From positions 1 through 59,547 of IMG/VR virus record IMGVR_UViG_3300008110_000074: a stretch of 59,547 bases of DNA. One strand, 5' to 3'. Of this stretch, positions 5,531 through 44,755 are shown in pieces. How positions within the stretch are numbered: the first letter of the stretch is position 1; each line of letters opens with the position of its first letter. Under the pieces are notes generated by a model, which ran no database searches, had not been told where the DNA came from, and saw nothing but the letters and a program-made list of their open reading frames with translations. The DNA is from a virus. Both the position numbers and the translations under genes were made by a program.

Positions 5531-15114
<9,584 letters not shown>

Positions 15115-38190: not shown

Positions 38191-39486
38191 TTATTCCTCT
38201 TCTACAACGTTTGAGAAACCGCCAGGCATACTAATCTCACCAGTTTCAGGATTAGTAGACAAAGCTTCTTGGATCTGATCTTTGTATGGAACGCCCATTT
38301 CAAACGGTCTTCTGGGGCATACTCCAAATACCTTGTCTAGTTCTTTGACTAGCTCAGGAGATTCAGAAATAGCCTTGCCTACTTCGTGCCAAGATCCTTT
38401 GGATATACCAAGAACCGGACAGTCAGCAGTCCTTCGCGTCTTGTCTATGTTTTCAATAGAGCAAGCGTTGTGGACAGCCTTTCTTTGCCAAGCTTCTTGG
38501 AAAGAATCAAACAAGGCCACCGTAGCGTCGTGCCAATCCCACATAGAAGTTTGAACCAGGTTTTCATCTTTGGTCCAAAGAAGCTTTACTTCTATGTACC
38601 TCCTGTCTCCAGCTGAAGACAGGCTGTTCTTGTCGCTGTGGATTCTGATCAGTCTTCCTTGCTCACTCTTTGTGTGAATGTCCGCTTTTCTAGCCATCCT
38701 AAGAATGAACGTAGAAGTAAATCCAAGACTAGCTCCTCCAGGAACTCTTCTGATAATAGGCTTGCCTGGAGAATGCTCTTCTTTCATATGGTTAATACCT
38801 ATGAAAGAAATGGGCCAGTACTGCATCTTTGGGAAGAATACTTTTACCCACATGTTCAAGTTCTTGGCGATGTTACTAAAAGTAGGAGTAGCATAGCCGT
38901 TCTTCCACGTATCGTCTGTCTCACTTTTTGTAGTGGCTGCTGTGATGCTATCGACTCCTAGAGCCATAGGCATCTCCATACCTCCCCTACAATCGTAGTG
39001 AGCCTCCGCAGCTTTTACGTACTCACTGCACATCTTTTGCCAAGATTCTACAGTCAAACAAGAGTGGCTTTTAAAAGGCAAAGGAGCCTTTATAAAAGAT
39101 TCCCTGAAATCTGGAGAATCCTTAGCCTCTACTTGAATATGACCAAAAAGCCCGTGAGGCATACCTGGGTCAAACTTAACTATCTTGCTGCCGTTGTATA
39201 TGTGCCATCTATACATTTCATAAAGAAGAGCTGTTTTACAACTTTCAGGTATGCCTATAATTTCTGTCATTCTTGAGTACGGAAAAACGCTGTTGCAGAA
39301 TAAGTACCTCAGACTGATCGCGTCTAGAGGTGCTCCAATGATAACCTTTGTGCTATCGTCACAAAGATAATCATTGCCCGGGCCATTCTCGACTTGCCTC
39401 ATATTCAGCACTTGCTGAAAAAAGGAGTCTGGGCCTGTCTTGACTGCAGGCCTGGCGTCTTCAACAACAGCTTTCTTCCTACCCAT
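38191..39486 (-). CDS. RecA/UvsX-like recombinase with atypical Walker A
   Basis: This 431-residue protein starts at MGRKKAVVEDARPAV behind AGGAG at 9 bases; a longer frame upstream is only the leader. RecA-core features are RMTEIIGIPESCKTALLYEMY (Walker A with Cys in place of the Gly before Lys), MALGVDSITAATTKSE (Walker B-like Asp and loop), ISFIGINHMKEEH (the NQ/NH stretch) and IRRVPGGASLGFTSTFILRMARK. It would pair homologous DNA in recombination-dependent replication. T4 UvsX also lacks that Gly, so activity is possible. It follows the probable ssDNA-binding protein gene and a structured leader. Confidence 0.78.
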   Translation of the reverse strand: MGRKKAVVEDARPAVKTGPDSFFQQVLNMRQVENGPGNDYLCDDSTKVIIGAPLDAISLRYLFCNSVFPYSRMTEIIGIPESCKTALLYEMYRWHIYNGSKIVKFDPGMPHGLFGHIQVEAKDSPDFRESFIKAPLPFKSHSCLTVESWQKMCSEYVKAAEAHYDCRGGMEMPMALGVDSITAATTKSETDDTWKNGYATPTFSNIAKNLNMWVKVFFPKMQYWPISFIGINHMKEEHSPGKPIIRRVPGGASLGFTSTFILRMARKADIHTKSEQGRLIRIHSDKNSLSSAGDRRYIEVKLLWTKDENLVQTSMWDWHDATVALFDSFQEAWQRKAVHNACSIENIDKTRRTADCPVLGISKGSWHEVGKAISESPELVKELDKVFGVCPRRPFEMGVPYKDQIQEALSTNPETGEISMPGGFSNVVEEE

Positions 39487-39489
39487 GAC

Positions 39490-39639
39490 ATCAATCTCCT
39501 GATTAAAAACTAAACAAACAAAGAAATAAAAAAGTGACAAAAAATGCGCGTACGTAAAAATACGCGCATTTAAAACAAACGAACGTGCAACAGGAGATTG
39601 ATAAAACAAACGCCTGTTGCACGTTTGCTTTATCAATCT
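39490..39639 (-). promoter_or_regulatory. Structured leader of the recombinase gene with interleaved repeats and anti-RBS
   Basis: On the minus strand, from the stop of the ssDNA-binding gene: X (39639-39629, AGATTGATAAA), Y (39625-39613, AACGTGCAACAGG), X' (39605-39595) and Y' (39594-39582). X pairs perfectly with X' (11 bp) and Y with Y' (13 bp). Within X'Y', positions 39602-39591 (ATCAATCTCCTG) are also exactly complementary to the recombinase ribosome binding site region 39501-39490 (CAGGAGATTGAT). Two exclusive folds follow, one hiding and one freeing the ribosome binding site. X contains the TGATAA of the upstream gene. Regulatory use is inferred. Confidence 0.6.
39535..39571 (-). terminator. 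Terminator-like hairpin in the recombinase leader
   Basis: An 11-bp stem (39542-39552 with 39561-39571, AAATGCGCGTA) has an 8-base loop. On the minus strand it is followed by TTTTGTCACTTTTTT. It lies 50 bp before the recombinase start and after the interleaved repeats, so it could end or attenuate transcription arriving from the upstream replication genes. Confidence 0.65.
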
Positions 39640-40976
39640 TCTGAAGGATTAGGTAACCGTGACTTTACAGCCTTACGGGCGTTCTGGATGTTTTGCCAAA
39701 CTTTGTTATTAGCATCATTAGTAGCTTCTTCAGGAACAAACTCGCCAGACGTGGGAGGACTAATAGCCTCACTAGAGATTGTCTTGGCTGGAGTAAGAGA
39801 AAAAGACTTTAAAGCAGGCTTGGCAAAAGCAGGCGCTGGAGGCGCTTCAGCCACGACAGCAGCAGGCACAGCCACATCAGCCCAAGAAGGTTCAGGAGCT
39901 GAAATAGACGTAACTTTAGTCTTACCCAGCTGCTGCAACCCTTCTGCCCTGATCTTTGGATTCAGGTACTGCCCGTAACGGTCATCCAGAGCATACACCA
40001 GCAAAGAAGGGTAGCCTGAATAAAGGTCTTGAACAAGCAAAACCTGCTCCTCATTGCTCATGATGTTTACACAAGAAGACCAGTCTTTGATCTTCTGTGT
40101 AACAGCTTCAGCAACGGAAGACAAATCTGCGGAGAAACCTTTGTACTCCTTTTCAAGGAACACATCAAAACCTTTGATAGTCTTATCGTTGCGACCGGCT
40201 GCCTCCAGCATTCCTGGAGTAAACTGGTTTGTACGCTTAAGACCTGCACGGCGAGGGTCTTGACCTTCCGTGAAGATAGTTACGTAGCTGCCTTCGTCTA
40301 GAGCTATGGGGTCGCCACATACGAAGTGAGCAGACACATTACTGCTGTCTCCGCGATAATCAGTCCTTTCGTCCATGGCGCTTCTCAGGTTCTTATACAC
40401 TGAGGGCTTTAAGAGCATGAACTGAGCACTGTCGTCTGGAGCCAAACCCTTAGGAGTTTGGAAGTCCTCACCCTTGTAGGACATCAACAGACACTGCACT
40501 AGCCAGCAAAGCTTGGGCTTTGCCGGAATAGCCGGAGAGTTGTAAGGCCCAGAAGGCAGAAGCAAACTAGCCCAACCCACAGAAAAAGGAAGACCTTTTT
40601 TGGTTCCCTCATCAGCAGCGCTGCGAATCATCATGAGAGGATTGCTGCTAATGTCATAGAACCTATCATACGGGTCGTGCATAACCCAGGTTCTAGCCCT
40701 TTCACTCTTTGGGTCTTTGACAGACTCTGCTACTTGAATAGGGAAAAACCACTGACCAAATTCATTCATGTTGGTCGGCAGTCGCCACGGATCAAGCATA
40801 GTTGGATTGTCAGGATTAACGCCTGGAAGAATCCTGATCACAGTAGACTGATTCATTGGCGGGCTGTACAGCTTTCCAGCACCCGGCTTAAGAATCATGT
40901 TGAGATACTTTCCGTCACCTCCAGAAAGATTGGCGCTGACAGAATTAACAGAGATACGGCGAGAGCTACCTTGCAT
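39633..40976 (-). CDS. Probable single-stranded DNA-binding protein (gp32-like)
   Basis: This 447-residue protein has its start at MQGSSRRISVNSVSANLSGG (AAAGGACTGTC upstream). The N-terminal part MILKPGAGKLYSPPMNQSTVIRILPGVNPDNP, followed by PWRLP, recalls the KFWKPKEGTNxIRILP opening of gp32-type ssDNA-binding proteins, and TVFTEGQ-type strands follow. An Ala/Pro-rich linker (about residues 355-420) leads to an end with acidic NPSED, like the acidic tip that recruits partners in SSBs. It is much longer than gp32 (about 300 residues). Position between polymerase/Dcd and recombinase supports the call, but the domain match is weak. Confidence 0.5.
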   Translation of the reverse strand: MQGSSRRISVNSVSANLSGGDGKYLNMILKPGAGKLYSPPMNQSTVIRILPGVNPDNPTMLDPWRLPTNMNEFGQWFFPIQVAESVKDPKSERARTWVMHDPYDRFYDISSNPLMMIRSAADEGTKKGLPFSVGWASLLLPSGPYNSPAIPAKPKLCWLVQCLLMSYKGEDFQTPKGLAPDDSAQFMLLKPSVYKNLRSAMDERTDYRGDSSNVSAHFVCGDPIALDEGSYVTIFTEGQDPRRAGLKRTNQFTPGMLEAAGRNDKTIKGFDVFLEKEYKGFSADLSSVAEAVTQKIKDWSSCVNIMSNEEQVLLVQDLYSGYPSLLVYALDDRYGQYLNPKIRAEGLQQLGKTKVTSISAPEPSWADVAVPAAVVAEAPPAPAFAKPALKSFSLTPAKTISSEAISPPTSGEFVPEEATNDANNKVWQNIQNARKAVKSRLPNPSED

Positions 40977-41561: not shown

Positions 41562-44500
41562 CAGCCTGCTCCGTAAAATTCGTTAATACCCAACTTTGCG
41601 CACTCTTCTTTTGTAATAGGTACAGACCATCTAGTGAATACGTCTGGAGGAGGAACCTGTAAATGATACGGACCTCCAGACCCTTTCCTGGTTCCGTCTA
41701 GGTTGCATGGCCACACATCAACCCTATCGCTCATGCACTCCGGTATGACGCTGTTTACAACCCAATCGACGCAGTTAACCGGAACCTCAAGAACTACGGC
41801 GTCATGTACCTGAAGAACTATGTCGTACCATAACTCAGGGTCTTCTGCCTCAAGCCTGTACCAGTACAGATGGTCAAGCGCCCTGGACATGGCGTCAGCC
41901 ACAGCTGACTGGACAGGGAAGTTCATGGCTTGCCTTTGCTGTTCCCCTGCAACATCTCTTTCAGAAGTTTTTGTAAACCTTCTGTACCTTCCAAAACAGT
42001 TTACTATGTAACCAGGATCTTGGCTCCTTTCACGGCATTCTTCAAAATACTTAGGAAGAGCTGGATACATTGAAACCAAGCCTTCAATAAGCTGACGAGC
42101 TTGATCAACAGTTACGTCAGCTCCTTCTTGTTTTGCTTTTCTTGCTGTAGCCTCAGCCTGTTGCCCGTAGGCGTAACCAAAAACCACGGCCTTGGCAGCA
42201 CTTCTAAGCGCGCTTTTACCGATTGACTTTAAGCCTTGCTTGGTTGGCGGACAGCTTAGACCGAAAGTATTCACAGCCACGTTGCTGTGAATGTCGTAAT
42301 AGTCTGGGTCGTCTTCAGGTAAACCGCTGCGCCTGACGTGTTCAGACATGTTTAAGTCGCCAGACTGCCAAGCCATGATAGCCAGCTCTGCGCCAGTGTA
42401 GTCTGCATCCACAAACACATGCCCAGGCTTGGCCCTTATTATGGACCTGAGAGGCATCTTGTACTCTAGCTGTATCTCTGATCCGTATCTTTTGAATACA
42501 GCCTTGTATTTTTCTTCAGCCGTCTTCCCCAAATTTTGCAAGGGAGGTCTTGCTGAGGAGGCTCTTCCTGTTTCTTTGGTTTGGAAGAACTGACTCCTGA
42601 CGCGATTGTCAGCATGAAGATAAGAAAGAAGGCCGGACTCATACTCAATACGTCCATCCTCATCCCTCACAGCAGAACCTTCTTCTACACCTTTTCCTGG
42701 CCTCAAGACGTACCTAGTAAGCTGAGCTACGTACCTTAAGTCTCGCAATAGCTCAACGCACGGATGCTTGTCAGAAAGTATTTGAAGTACTTCTTTGTCC
42801 GTGGAAACAGCGTAGTCACTTTCTATGTTCTTGGCTTTTATTTCCTTCCACATCTTAGGCCTTTTGCCTGTAGACTTGTATGGCTCCAAGTACAAAGACA
42901 AAGCTCCCTCGGGCCTGACGCTCTTTGGTTTAAAAGTTTCTTTGTCTATAACGCCGTTGTACTGCTCACCAAACATCATCTCTCGACAATGTTGAACGGA
43001 GCTGGTGTTGAACTCAGGCCAGTTTAGTTCTTTACGCAATATCTCAAGAAGCCTGTTCTTAGCTTTTAGATAATGCTCTGTTAGAGTTTCTGCTGTTTCC
43101 AAGTCTACTTGCAAACCAGTCATGTGCATTTCACCAAACGCAGAGCTGGCTCTCATGGATACCCAGAAAGGTTTCCTGGAGTTATTGCCATAAGAATCTC
43201 TATCTAAAGCTCCTGGCTGATCTTCTTTTCCGTTAAAAAAATCAAAAAGACGCCTGGTGCAGTCAGCGTCATAGTTGCCGTAAGGTATTAGTATTTCATC
43301 AGGGCAATCGCCGTAACCTTCCAACTGCTCTGAGTTTATCTTGTTTTGTTCACAATAAGATTTTTTCCATTTCTGTAAATCTACGTCGTATCTTGGTACG
43401 CCTACATACCTTGTACCCAAGACTTCTAGCTTGAAATCTCCAGTCTCATTGACGGAGTGCGCGGCAAGAAGTGTGTCAAAACCTCCAAACTTTTTTGTCT
43501 TTTGATAACCAAACAATTTTTCTTTTCCGTTAGCCCCTGGAGAATCCATTGGAGCCACGAAGTTACTTCTTATGTCCAGTCCTACATGCATAAGCCAAGG
43601 CATGTCAGCGTTTAGGTAATGCCCTACTACTCTTACTTTTCTTTTAGGCGTATTAGTAAAAACCTTGCTCAACTCTTCTATGACCGCAGGTATTCCTCCC
43701 TCTATCTCGGACTCTCCTCCTTGGTTGTGCAAAACAAAACAAGCAGCTTTTCCAGGTTTCCAGGAAATCTGTATTGTTCTGACGTACGCGTTTTTTTCAG
43801 TAGGGTACGAGCCGTGCCACTCAGCATCTACAGCTACAACGTTTGAGTCAGGCTCGTTTAATATTTCCTGTACTAAGATTTTCGCCTCGTCAAGACCTTT
43901 GATCGTCCTGTGGTCTATTACCTCTTCAGCCTTCTCCTGTCCTAAGATCGTGTTTAGAAAAACTCTGACAACTCCCTTAAGATCATCAGACCTTTCAGGC
44001 TTTTTCAGTACTGCAGCAGGGCTTATACCAGTTATAACTTTTGCTGTAAAAAACTCATCTTCGCCTTTGCCGTCTTTTACTTTTATCTCCATCACCCTTC
44101 CTTGGGTGTTTGAAGTGGTATGGCCTTTACCAAGAACAGCAGTTATAGCTTCAGAGCCCAAAGCAAGTATGAAGCTTGGCCGAACAAGCTTTATCTCTTG
44201 CTGCAGTATCAGAGAACAGTTTTTAATCCAAGAAGCTTTGAAAACTCCTCCCTTAGTGTCTGGGTGGTCATGCTTTATGACTGACGTGATGTAAAACTGT
44301 TGTTTGTCAAAAAATCCTTCTTCTTCAAAACAATTAGCCAGTATCTCTCCCGCGTTACCGACTAGAACTTTTCTGTTGTAGTGGTTCTTAACGTGAGGCT
44401 GCTTTACTACGATCATGACGGGAGACGGAACAGGCCCTGTAGCCTGCTCCGTCCACAGCCCGCCAAGAACAAAATTAACAGTAACTTTTTTATTTAAATA

Positions 44501-44755
44501 CGATAACGGCAATACGAAATTGTCGTCGTACAAAGCTCTGTAGTATAAGGCTTCAAGCTCAAAGTCGTGAGTCTTGTAGTCTATACCGTCTTTTTTTAGC
44601 AGCTCAGCGTACTCAACAAAGTCTGGACCCGGCGCGGGCAAGCCTTCAAAATTCTTTCTGTAAAAAGGAAAATTTTTGAATAGCTCTGTGTCACCGAATC
44701 TCAAAGTTTCTAAGAACCTGAGTTCGCTGTACATCTTTCTAAAATTATCGCTCAT
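41561..44755 (-). CDS. Family A DNA polymerase with N-terminal uracil-glycosylase-like domain and proofreading exonuclease
   Basis: This 1064-residue fusion has three parts. Residues about 110-245 resemble a family 4/5-type uracil-DNA glycosylase (GPVPSPVMIVVKQP, VGNAGEILANCFEEEGF, RPSFILALGSEAITAVLG, GISPAAVLKKPE). Residues about 300-500 are a DEDD exonuclease (VVAVDAEWHGSY, VGHYLNADMPWL, YGNYDADCTRRL). The polymerase has ARPPLQNL, motif A VFVDADYTGAELAIMAW (about 785), motif B SAAKAVVFGYAYGQ (about 860) and motif C LQVHDAVVLEVP (about 985). Motif C has Ala where most polymerases have Glu after HD. It is the replicative polymerase. The glycosylase part may recognise uracil in templates; SPO1-type phages are reported to have a similar arrangement. 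Confidence 0.9.
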   Translation of the reverse strand: MSDNFRKMYSELRFLETLRFGDTELFKNFPFYRKNFEGLPAPGPDFVEYAELLKKDGIDYKTHDFELEALYYRALYDDNFVLPLSYLNKKVTVNFVLGGLWTEQATGPVPSPVMIVVKQPHVKNHYNRKVLVGNAGEILANCFEEEGFFDKQQFYITSVIKHDHPDTKGGVFKASWIKNCSLILQQEIKLVRPSFILALGSEAITAVLGKGHTTSNTQGRVMEIKVKDGKGEDEFFTAKVITGISPAAVLKKPERSDDLKGVVRVFLNTILGQEKAEEVIDHRTIKGLDEAKILVQEILNEPDSNVVAVDAEWHGSYPTEKNAYVRTIQISWKPGKAACFVLHNQGGESEIEGGIPAVIEELSKVFTNTPKRKVRVVGHYLNADMPWLMHVGLDIRSNFVAPMDSPGANGKEKLFGYQKTKKFGGFDTLLAAHSVNETGDFKLEVLGTRYVGVPRYDVDLQKWKKSYCEQNKINSEQLEGYGDCPDEILIPYGNYDADCTRRLFDFFNGKEDQPGALDRDSYGNNSRKPFWVSMRASSAFGEMHMTGLQVDLETAETLTEHYLKAKNRLLEILRKELNWPEFNTSSVQHCREMMFGEQYNGVIDKETFKPKSVRPEGALSLYLEPYKSTGKRPKMWKEIKAKNIESDYAVSTDKEVLQILSDKHPCVELLRDLRYVAQLTRYVLRPGKGVEEGSAVRDEDGRIEYESGLLSYLHADNRVRSQFFQTKETGRASSARPPLQNLGKTAEEKYKAVFKRYGSEIQLEYKMPLRSIIRAKPGHVFVDADYTGAELAIMAWQSGDLNMSEHVRRSGLPEDDPDYYDIHSNVAVNTFGLSCPPTKQGLKSIGKSALRSAAKAVVFGYAYGQQAEATARKAKQEGADVTVDQARQLIEGLVSMYPALPKYFEECRERSQDPGYIVNCFGRYRRFTKTSERDVAGEQQRQAMNFPVQSAVADAMSRALDHLYWYRLEAEDPELWYDIVLQVHDAVVLEVPVNCVDWVVNSVIPECMSDRVDVWPCNLDGTRKGSGGPYHLQVPPPDVFTRWSVPITKEECAKLGINEFYGAG

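Follow-up and report, generated by a model that had tools for sequence, protein, structure and literature searches.

Template switching at imperfect palindromes is an already known mutational mechanism. Quasipalindrome-associated switching is described from E. coli, yeast CYC1, and T4 rIIB, with the first observation credited to yeast CYC1 and phage T4 rIIB (Ripley 1982; PMC7202029), and a second source states that template switching can make RNA stems in one event, as for RNA-gene hairpins (PMC8794818). With respect to gene regulation, two further sources describe the autogenous operator of T4 gene 32 as a pseudoknot plus an unstructured A+U-rich stretch over the ribosome binding site (RBS) (PMC3014915), and translational coupling by RNA unfolding in rpmI-rplT and f1 VII-IX (PMC12548453). 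In the present study, the leader in front of a UvsX-like recombinase gene was analyzed in a window that comprises a whole virus record of 59,547 bases. In this leader two inverted repeats, X/X' and Y/Y', are interleaved in the order X-Y-X'-Y', and we lean toward the view that they are the footprint of a DNA-copying slip (a template switch) in a hairpin-bearing intergenic gap. The locus resembles quasipalindrome-associated switches in that an imperfect hairpin is accompanied by new bases that are the exact reverse complement of adjacent sequence; it differs from the known events in that two templates (X, then Y) would have been used in a row, an 11-nt direct repeat flanks the unit, and the resulting repeats are interleaved and not nested. 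An earlier note on this DNA had proposed that the leader is a new device coupling SSB and recombinase synthesis. As a proven new gene switch such a device is unsupported, and the template-switch footprint is the better explanation.

The recombinase gene lies in a tightly packed minus-strand gene run that also holds a family A polymerase, a dCTP deaminase, and a 447-aa protein (Table 1). With gene borders, and gaps for folding, picked by us from the list of open reading frames, 13 consecutive gaps measured -4, 9, 2, 146, 63, -1, 6, 9, 13, -4, -29, -4, and -4 nt; the 146-nt gap between the 447-aa gene and the recombinase gene was the largest, and only the two flanks of the 447-aa gene exceeded 13 nt. 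A two-sequence profile of the recombinase matched a recombinase (PDB 7z3m, E 5.3e-5) and UvsX (PDB 9gbg, E 1.2e-4), and no Pfam match was found at E 0.001. On the minus strand, no stop codon interrupts the recombinase frame anywhere in the leader (39636-39487) when it is read from a TTG overlapping the upstream TGA, which gives a 481-aa ORF. An N-terminal extension of the recombinase from this TTG was considered and set aside; the frame is open, and no other sign of its use was seen.

Table 1. Genes and leader elements at the junction between the 447-aa gene and the recombinase gene.
Feature	Position	Strand	Details
Family A DNA polymerase	41564-44755	(-)	N-terminal uracil-DNA-glycosylase-superfamily domain and 3'-5' exonuclease domain
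Upstream gene ('SSB' of the earlier note)	39633..40976	(-)	447 aa from ATG 40976
UvsX-like recombinase	38191..39486	(-)	431 aa from ATG 39486; phrog_97, E 9.3e-12
X, AGATTGATAAA	39639-39629	(-)	11 bp with X'; covers the TGATAA stop of the upstream gene
Y, AACGTGCAACAGG	39625-39613	(-)	13 bp with Y'
X'	39605-39595	(-)	11 bp, perfect with X
Y'	39594-39582	(-)	13 bp with Y
Anti-RBS 12-mer, ATCAATCTCCTG	39602-39591	(-)	spans the X'/Y' junction; 12 bp with CAGGAGATTGAT
Recombinase RBS region, CAGGAGATTGAT	39501-39490	(-)	
31-nt unit	39612-39582	(-)	CGTTTGTTTT (10 nt), then the reverse complements of 8 nt of X and of the 13 nt of Y
Direct repeat, CGTTTGTTTTA (11 nt)	39612-39602 and 39581-39571	(-)	copies 31 nt apart
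Terminator-like hairpin	39571-39542	(-)	11-bp stem, 39571-39561 / 39552-39542; -16.2 kcal/mol
Near-repeat pair, upstream gene end / RBS	39643-39632 and 39501-39490	(-)	

The 447-aa ORF was listed from an earlier TTG, and the ATG start is our choice. The note had labeled this gene as ssDNA-binding, a label that found no support in family searches: the protein gave no informative match in PHROG, Pfam, or NCBIfam, and a PDB profile search returned only unrelated proteins (E 0.11-0.12). Alignment with T4 gp32 by hhalign had a probability of 0.3% (E 0.2), with one suggestive stretch (VIRILPG versus VIRFLPS), and an AlphaFold2 model built from two sequences had a mean pLDDT of 33.7 and was unusable. 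The name 'SSB' for this protein thus reflects gene order and reading only. Comparison with the T4 gene 32 operator is to be made accordingly. Both loci have a structured 5' element, then a U-rich stretch before the RBS, within a replication/recombination cluster; in contrast to the T4 operator, the leader here precedes the recombinase and not an ssDNA-binding gene, X:X' and Y:Y' form no joint pseudoknot, and the upstream protein shows no gp32 likeness beyond that just given.

All of the leader elements that the note had described (the order of the repeats, their pairings, and the hairpin) are present where it had placed them. X/X' sits within a longer hairpin, A (39638-39622 / 39612-39596), of 17 pairs including one G.U, or 18 if a further G.U is counted, and Y/Y' is the core of hairpin B. 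In the terminator-like stem, a GCGCG core is combined with a run of six T, the first three of which lie inside the stem. When inverted repeats with arms of at least 10 bp spanning at most 160 nt were collected, the window held 30 (shuffle mean 8.1), and the pair in the leader was the only interleaved one; dinucleotide-shuffling the whole window 100 times yielded 3 interleaved pairs in total. An anti-RBS match of at least 12 Watson-Crick pairs was seen in none of 1000 leader shuffles, and when G.U pairs were counted (13 observed) the match was equaled in 27 of 1000. The leader folded with a z of -6.42, none of 200 shuffles being equally stable. The exact anti-RBS is not due to chance; dinucleotide shuffles contain no model of template switching, and they indicate non-randomness, not function. 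As a matter of caution, strong inverted repeats, and even an exact anti-RBS, are no evidence of regulation by themselves.

The composition of the 31-nt unit carries the case for a template switch. The 11-nt direct repeat CGTTTGTTTTA is exact, and its copies begin immediately after Y and immediately after Y'. The 21 new nucleotides of the unit consist, with no leftovers, of two pieces, 8 and 13 nt long, each exactly reverse-complementary to sequence in the 27 nt upstream; the 8-nt piece is the exact reverse complement of AGATTGAT in X. Among 128 entries for direct-repeat 11-mers lying 20-60 nt apart (pairs counted on both strands, overlapping 11-mers separately), this unit alone gave a reverse-complement match of at least 9 nt, scored against the 60 nt upstream. 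The event and its order, read back from this composition, would be as follows. The ancestral gap would have held an imperfect palindrome (TAAAGCAAACGT, loop, GCGTTTGTTTTA), and the empty site, reconstructed from this one sequence, would have run from Y directly into CGTTTGTTTTAAATG. With the unit removed, the reconstructed site folds into a 12-pair imperfect-palindrome hairpin with two G.U, which, as modeled, is able to prime snap-back. During replication, the new strand may have snapped back on the palindrome, pairing with its own 5' arm; the folded-back strand would have copied 8 nt of its own 5' flank to give X', and copying would then have slipped to 13 nt of Y to give Y'. The strand would finally have returned to the template at CGTTTGTTTTA, leaving a 31-nt insertion and the X-Y-X'-Y' order. 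The interleaved order would thus follow from a single proposed template-switch event with a 31-nt insertion. The note had itself mentioned a remnant of an inverted duplication as an alternative, and the composition of the unit supports that alternative better than it supports the coupling device. Two successive template switches are expected to be rarer than one, and attenuator-type switches likewise require duplicated 3' arms, such that selection could have kept or made the X-Y-X'-Y' pattern. A genome with the empty site was not found among the related records of two lineages. If the mutational reading is true, one replication slip would have created competing RNA hairpins and a chance anti-RBS, the raw material of a riboregulator.

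A further likeness concerns X and the RBS. X repeats the RBS almost exactly and in the same orientation (TCAGRAGATTGAT, 12 of 13 nt; TCAGAAGATTGAT aligned with TCAGGAGATTGAT), a level reached in none of 1000 shuffles. The word CAGRAGATTGAT occurs exactly three times in a related 189,675-base record (G001), every time within the leader, and in three more places with one mismatch. Of the 12 nt in the anti-RBS match, 8 derive from X, and the remaining 4 (CCTG) are the start of Y', a copy of the end of Y. The anti-RBS exists because X already resembled the RBS. The likeness between X and the RBS is not accounted for by the template-switch event. We speculate that the two genes once met compactly, the RBS then lying within the last part of the upstream gene, and that the insertion of the leader duplicated that stretch; the diverged lineage described below, which also has a spacer, is neutral on this speculation.

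The coupling reading was assessed by RNA folding. According to this reading, hairpin A would free the RBS, and occupation of X and most of Y would let X'/Y' close it, such that translation or termination of the upstream gene would lower recombinase synthesis (inverse coupling). The likeness to rpmI-rplT and f1 VII-IX is that upstream translation would alter RNA structure near a downstream RBS; unlike in those systems, the upstream ribosome would hide the site, and across a 146-nt gap. Two features of the leader speak for such a switch, namely the exact 12-nt anti-RBS and the placement of X on the stop codon. The note's open state, in which XY binds X'Y', proved to be two alternative hairpins, A (X:X' outer part, -22.3 kcal/mol) and B (-27.3 kcal/mol), and not one structure. 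A pseudoknot needs bridging loop nucleotides between its helices. X' runs to 39595 and Y' starts at 39594, with 0 nt between; because X' and Y' abut, leaving no bridging nucleotide for an 11-bp helix, A and B are mutually exclusive, and an H-type pseudoknot of X:X' and Y:Y', when tested by coordinates, cannot form both its 11-bp and its 13-bp stem. The claim that X'Y' hides the site holds insofar as exclusive folds exist, but the hiding fold (-48.7 kcal/mol) is worse by 6.3 kcal/mol than the leader fold with A (-55.0) and by 9.4 kcal/mol than that with B (-58.1). In a masking scan, in which the 5' side of the leader was blocked in 3-nt steps, the probability of the hiding fold was 0.0 as long as the first free nucleotide lay from 39640 to 39622, 0.919 at 39619, and 0.99 at 39616; from 39619 to 39604 the anti-RBS was paired at 0.92-0.99 and the SD was closed. 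For a ribosome with the upstream stop codon in its A site, we take the first free nucleotide to be at about 39621-39623. The flip is therefore about 2-4 nt past the expected reach of the ribosome, i.e., just out of reach or marginal, and in the modeled folds a ribosome halted at the stop would not favor hiding with 39622 free but would do so once a few more nucleotides were masked. For a pseudoknot in which the loop of hairpin B pairs with the RBS, the estimate was -60.9 kcal/mol before any penalty, below B alone at -58.1 kcal/mol, which would favor the switch; pseudoknot penalties are 7-9.6 kcal/mol, and with them the estimate becomes -53.9 to -51.3 kcal/mol, worse than B. Within the RBS, ATTGAT is mostly engaged in local pairs, also in the open states of the masking scan (unpaired 0.2-0.33). 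Moreover, the RBS is separated from the repeats by a terminator-like hairpin; if this hairpin works, the switch and the RBS would be on one RNA only after read-through. A review associates structure right after an upstream stop with weaker coupling (PMC12548453). The pattern is also absent from the only diverged lineage found. What stands of the proposed SSB-recombinase coupling is thus the exact anti-RBS and the closing of the RBS upon slightly wider masking; the energies, the reach, and the diverged lineage count against it, and we regard a translational switch as doubtful. If it were real, two genes of a recombination cluster would be translationally coupled in an inverse manner. That a template-switch accident yielded a working inverse switch, with upstream ribosomes holding X and Y and the freed X'/Y' closing the recombinase RBS, seems a rather improbable combination; recombinase would then be made only when upstream translation slackens, and X would be a decoy for the anti-RBS.

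Another explanation sees the leader as tandem terminators and nothing more: hairpin B, followed by its TTTGTTTT tail, and the terminator-like hairpin would end the upstream transcript, and the recombinase would be transcribed from leak-through or from its own promoter. The stabilities of the two hairpins are in keeping with this, as are a terminator-like hairpin also before the upstream gene (41028-41006, minus strand), the confinement of gaps above 13 nt to the flanks of that gene, and the presence of a long hairpin in at least 4 of 14 other folded gaps. The likeness to intrinsic (Rho-independent) terminators, i.e., a stem with a G+C core and a T run at a gene end, holds only for the terminator-like hairpin and, less clearly, for hairpin B. 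The note's terminator-like hairpin is indeed found between the repeats and the RBS, but a consensus terminator scan did not list it. Also against this explanation, terminator-like sites in 15 kb numbered 16 versus a shuffle mean of 14.3 (sd 3.8), the leader has no minus-strand promoter-like site (promoter-like sites numbered 14 versus 18.5 in shuffles), and the 31-nt direct repeat and the RBS match are left unexplained. We consider tandem terminators unlikely as the whole account; they are compatible with, and not opposed to, a template-switch origin. The leader is probably a transcription terminator region, and we take termination or insulation of the upstream transcript as the more likely main role, any translational effect being secondary. 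Under the favored template-switch explanation, the RNA of today probably adopts B together with the terminator-like hairpin, A being perhaps passed through during folding, and the leader would chiefly keep expression of the upstream gene apart from that of the recombinase while changing RBS openness little on balance; predicted SD openness is 0.62 with the 31-nt unit and 0.59 without it. A DNA-level element, either a replication origin (an alternative in the note) or a set of binding sites formed by the three CAGRAGATTGAT copies, is very improbable. In its favor, the 189,675-base record has no exact copies besides these three; against it, such confinement is unlike a regulon, the third copy coincides with the needed RBS, and GC skew in 2-kb windows has no turn near 39 kb, which argues against the origin.

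Several candidates were examined and rejected. A mobile element or operator family was set aside, given that leader DNA matched elsewhere in G001 and a second related record, G002, only at E >=0.06, and that, for an operator family, no exact CAGRAGATTGAT lay outside the leader in G001. An Rfam leader family was likewise set aside, with 0 matches in the window at the gathering threshold; below threshold, the trpB motif scored 31.4 bits (threshold 59) and the L20 leader 23 (threshold 58.7).

Related records were sought in viral contigs with queries from the recombinase, the upstream protein, the polymerase, and fragment alignments, using short exact peptide patterns, by which relatives may be missed. 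These scans gave four related records in two lineages, and scans of genome contigs gave no related record. G001 (IMGVR_UViG_3300021594_000641) and G002 (IMGVR_UViG_3300032093_000065) showed no difference from the window in the 13 kb compared (100% identity); because they are identical they say nothing on conservation, and it appears that one phage was recovered more than once, under different dataset numbers. The diverged lineage (two records) has the same gene order, with identities, measured on its record L018, of 67% for the polymerase, 51% for the recombinase, and 39% for the 447-aa protein. Its junction, 83 nt long, holds a single 15-bp hairpin, perfectly paired and closed by a GAAA loop. 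Interleaved repeats (arms of at least 10 bp) are absent from this junction, its leader shows no recognizable counterpart, and complementarity to its RBS was at chance (5 Watson-Crick pairs, 774 of 1000 shuffles; 8 with G.U, 464 of 1000). The lineages have in common that a hairpin follows the upstream gene, which speaks for the footprint reading; the device itself is not shared.

In a phage collection, no DNA match was found, nor any tblastn match of the recombinase or the upstream protein at E 1e-5. The diverged recombinase weakly matched 7 Bacillus phages (E 3e-3 to 6e-3) in this collection. The polymerase matched 2280 phage records, all below 60% identity, with the 20 listed at 24-26%; these matches were too distant and thus unusable for comparison of the leader. 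Leader DNA matched 36 records of the collection at E <=10, and the 20 matches listed all had E 7.

Some further observations were made. In the diverged lineage, only a 10-nt gap is present where the window has the hairpin before the 447-aa gene. The near-identical relatives L017 (8001-11189) and L018 (8001-11198) encode polymerases of 1062 and 1065 aa, that of L017 being without three residues. A weak promoter-like site (9/12) lies inside the leader on the plus strand (39534-39561), where such sites are not above chance. Finally, two large minus-strand ORFs of the window (6141-11684 and 11698-15114) contain collagen-like Gly-X-Y runs, the longest being of 59 and 125 triplets, respectively. These runs are probably the reason why the minus strand has 44 CAACAGG-type matches, versus a shuffle mean of 16.3.
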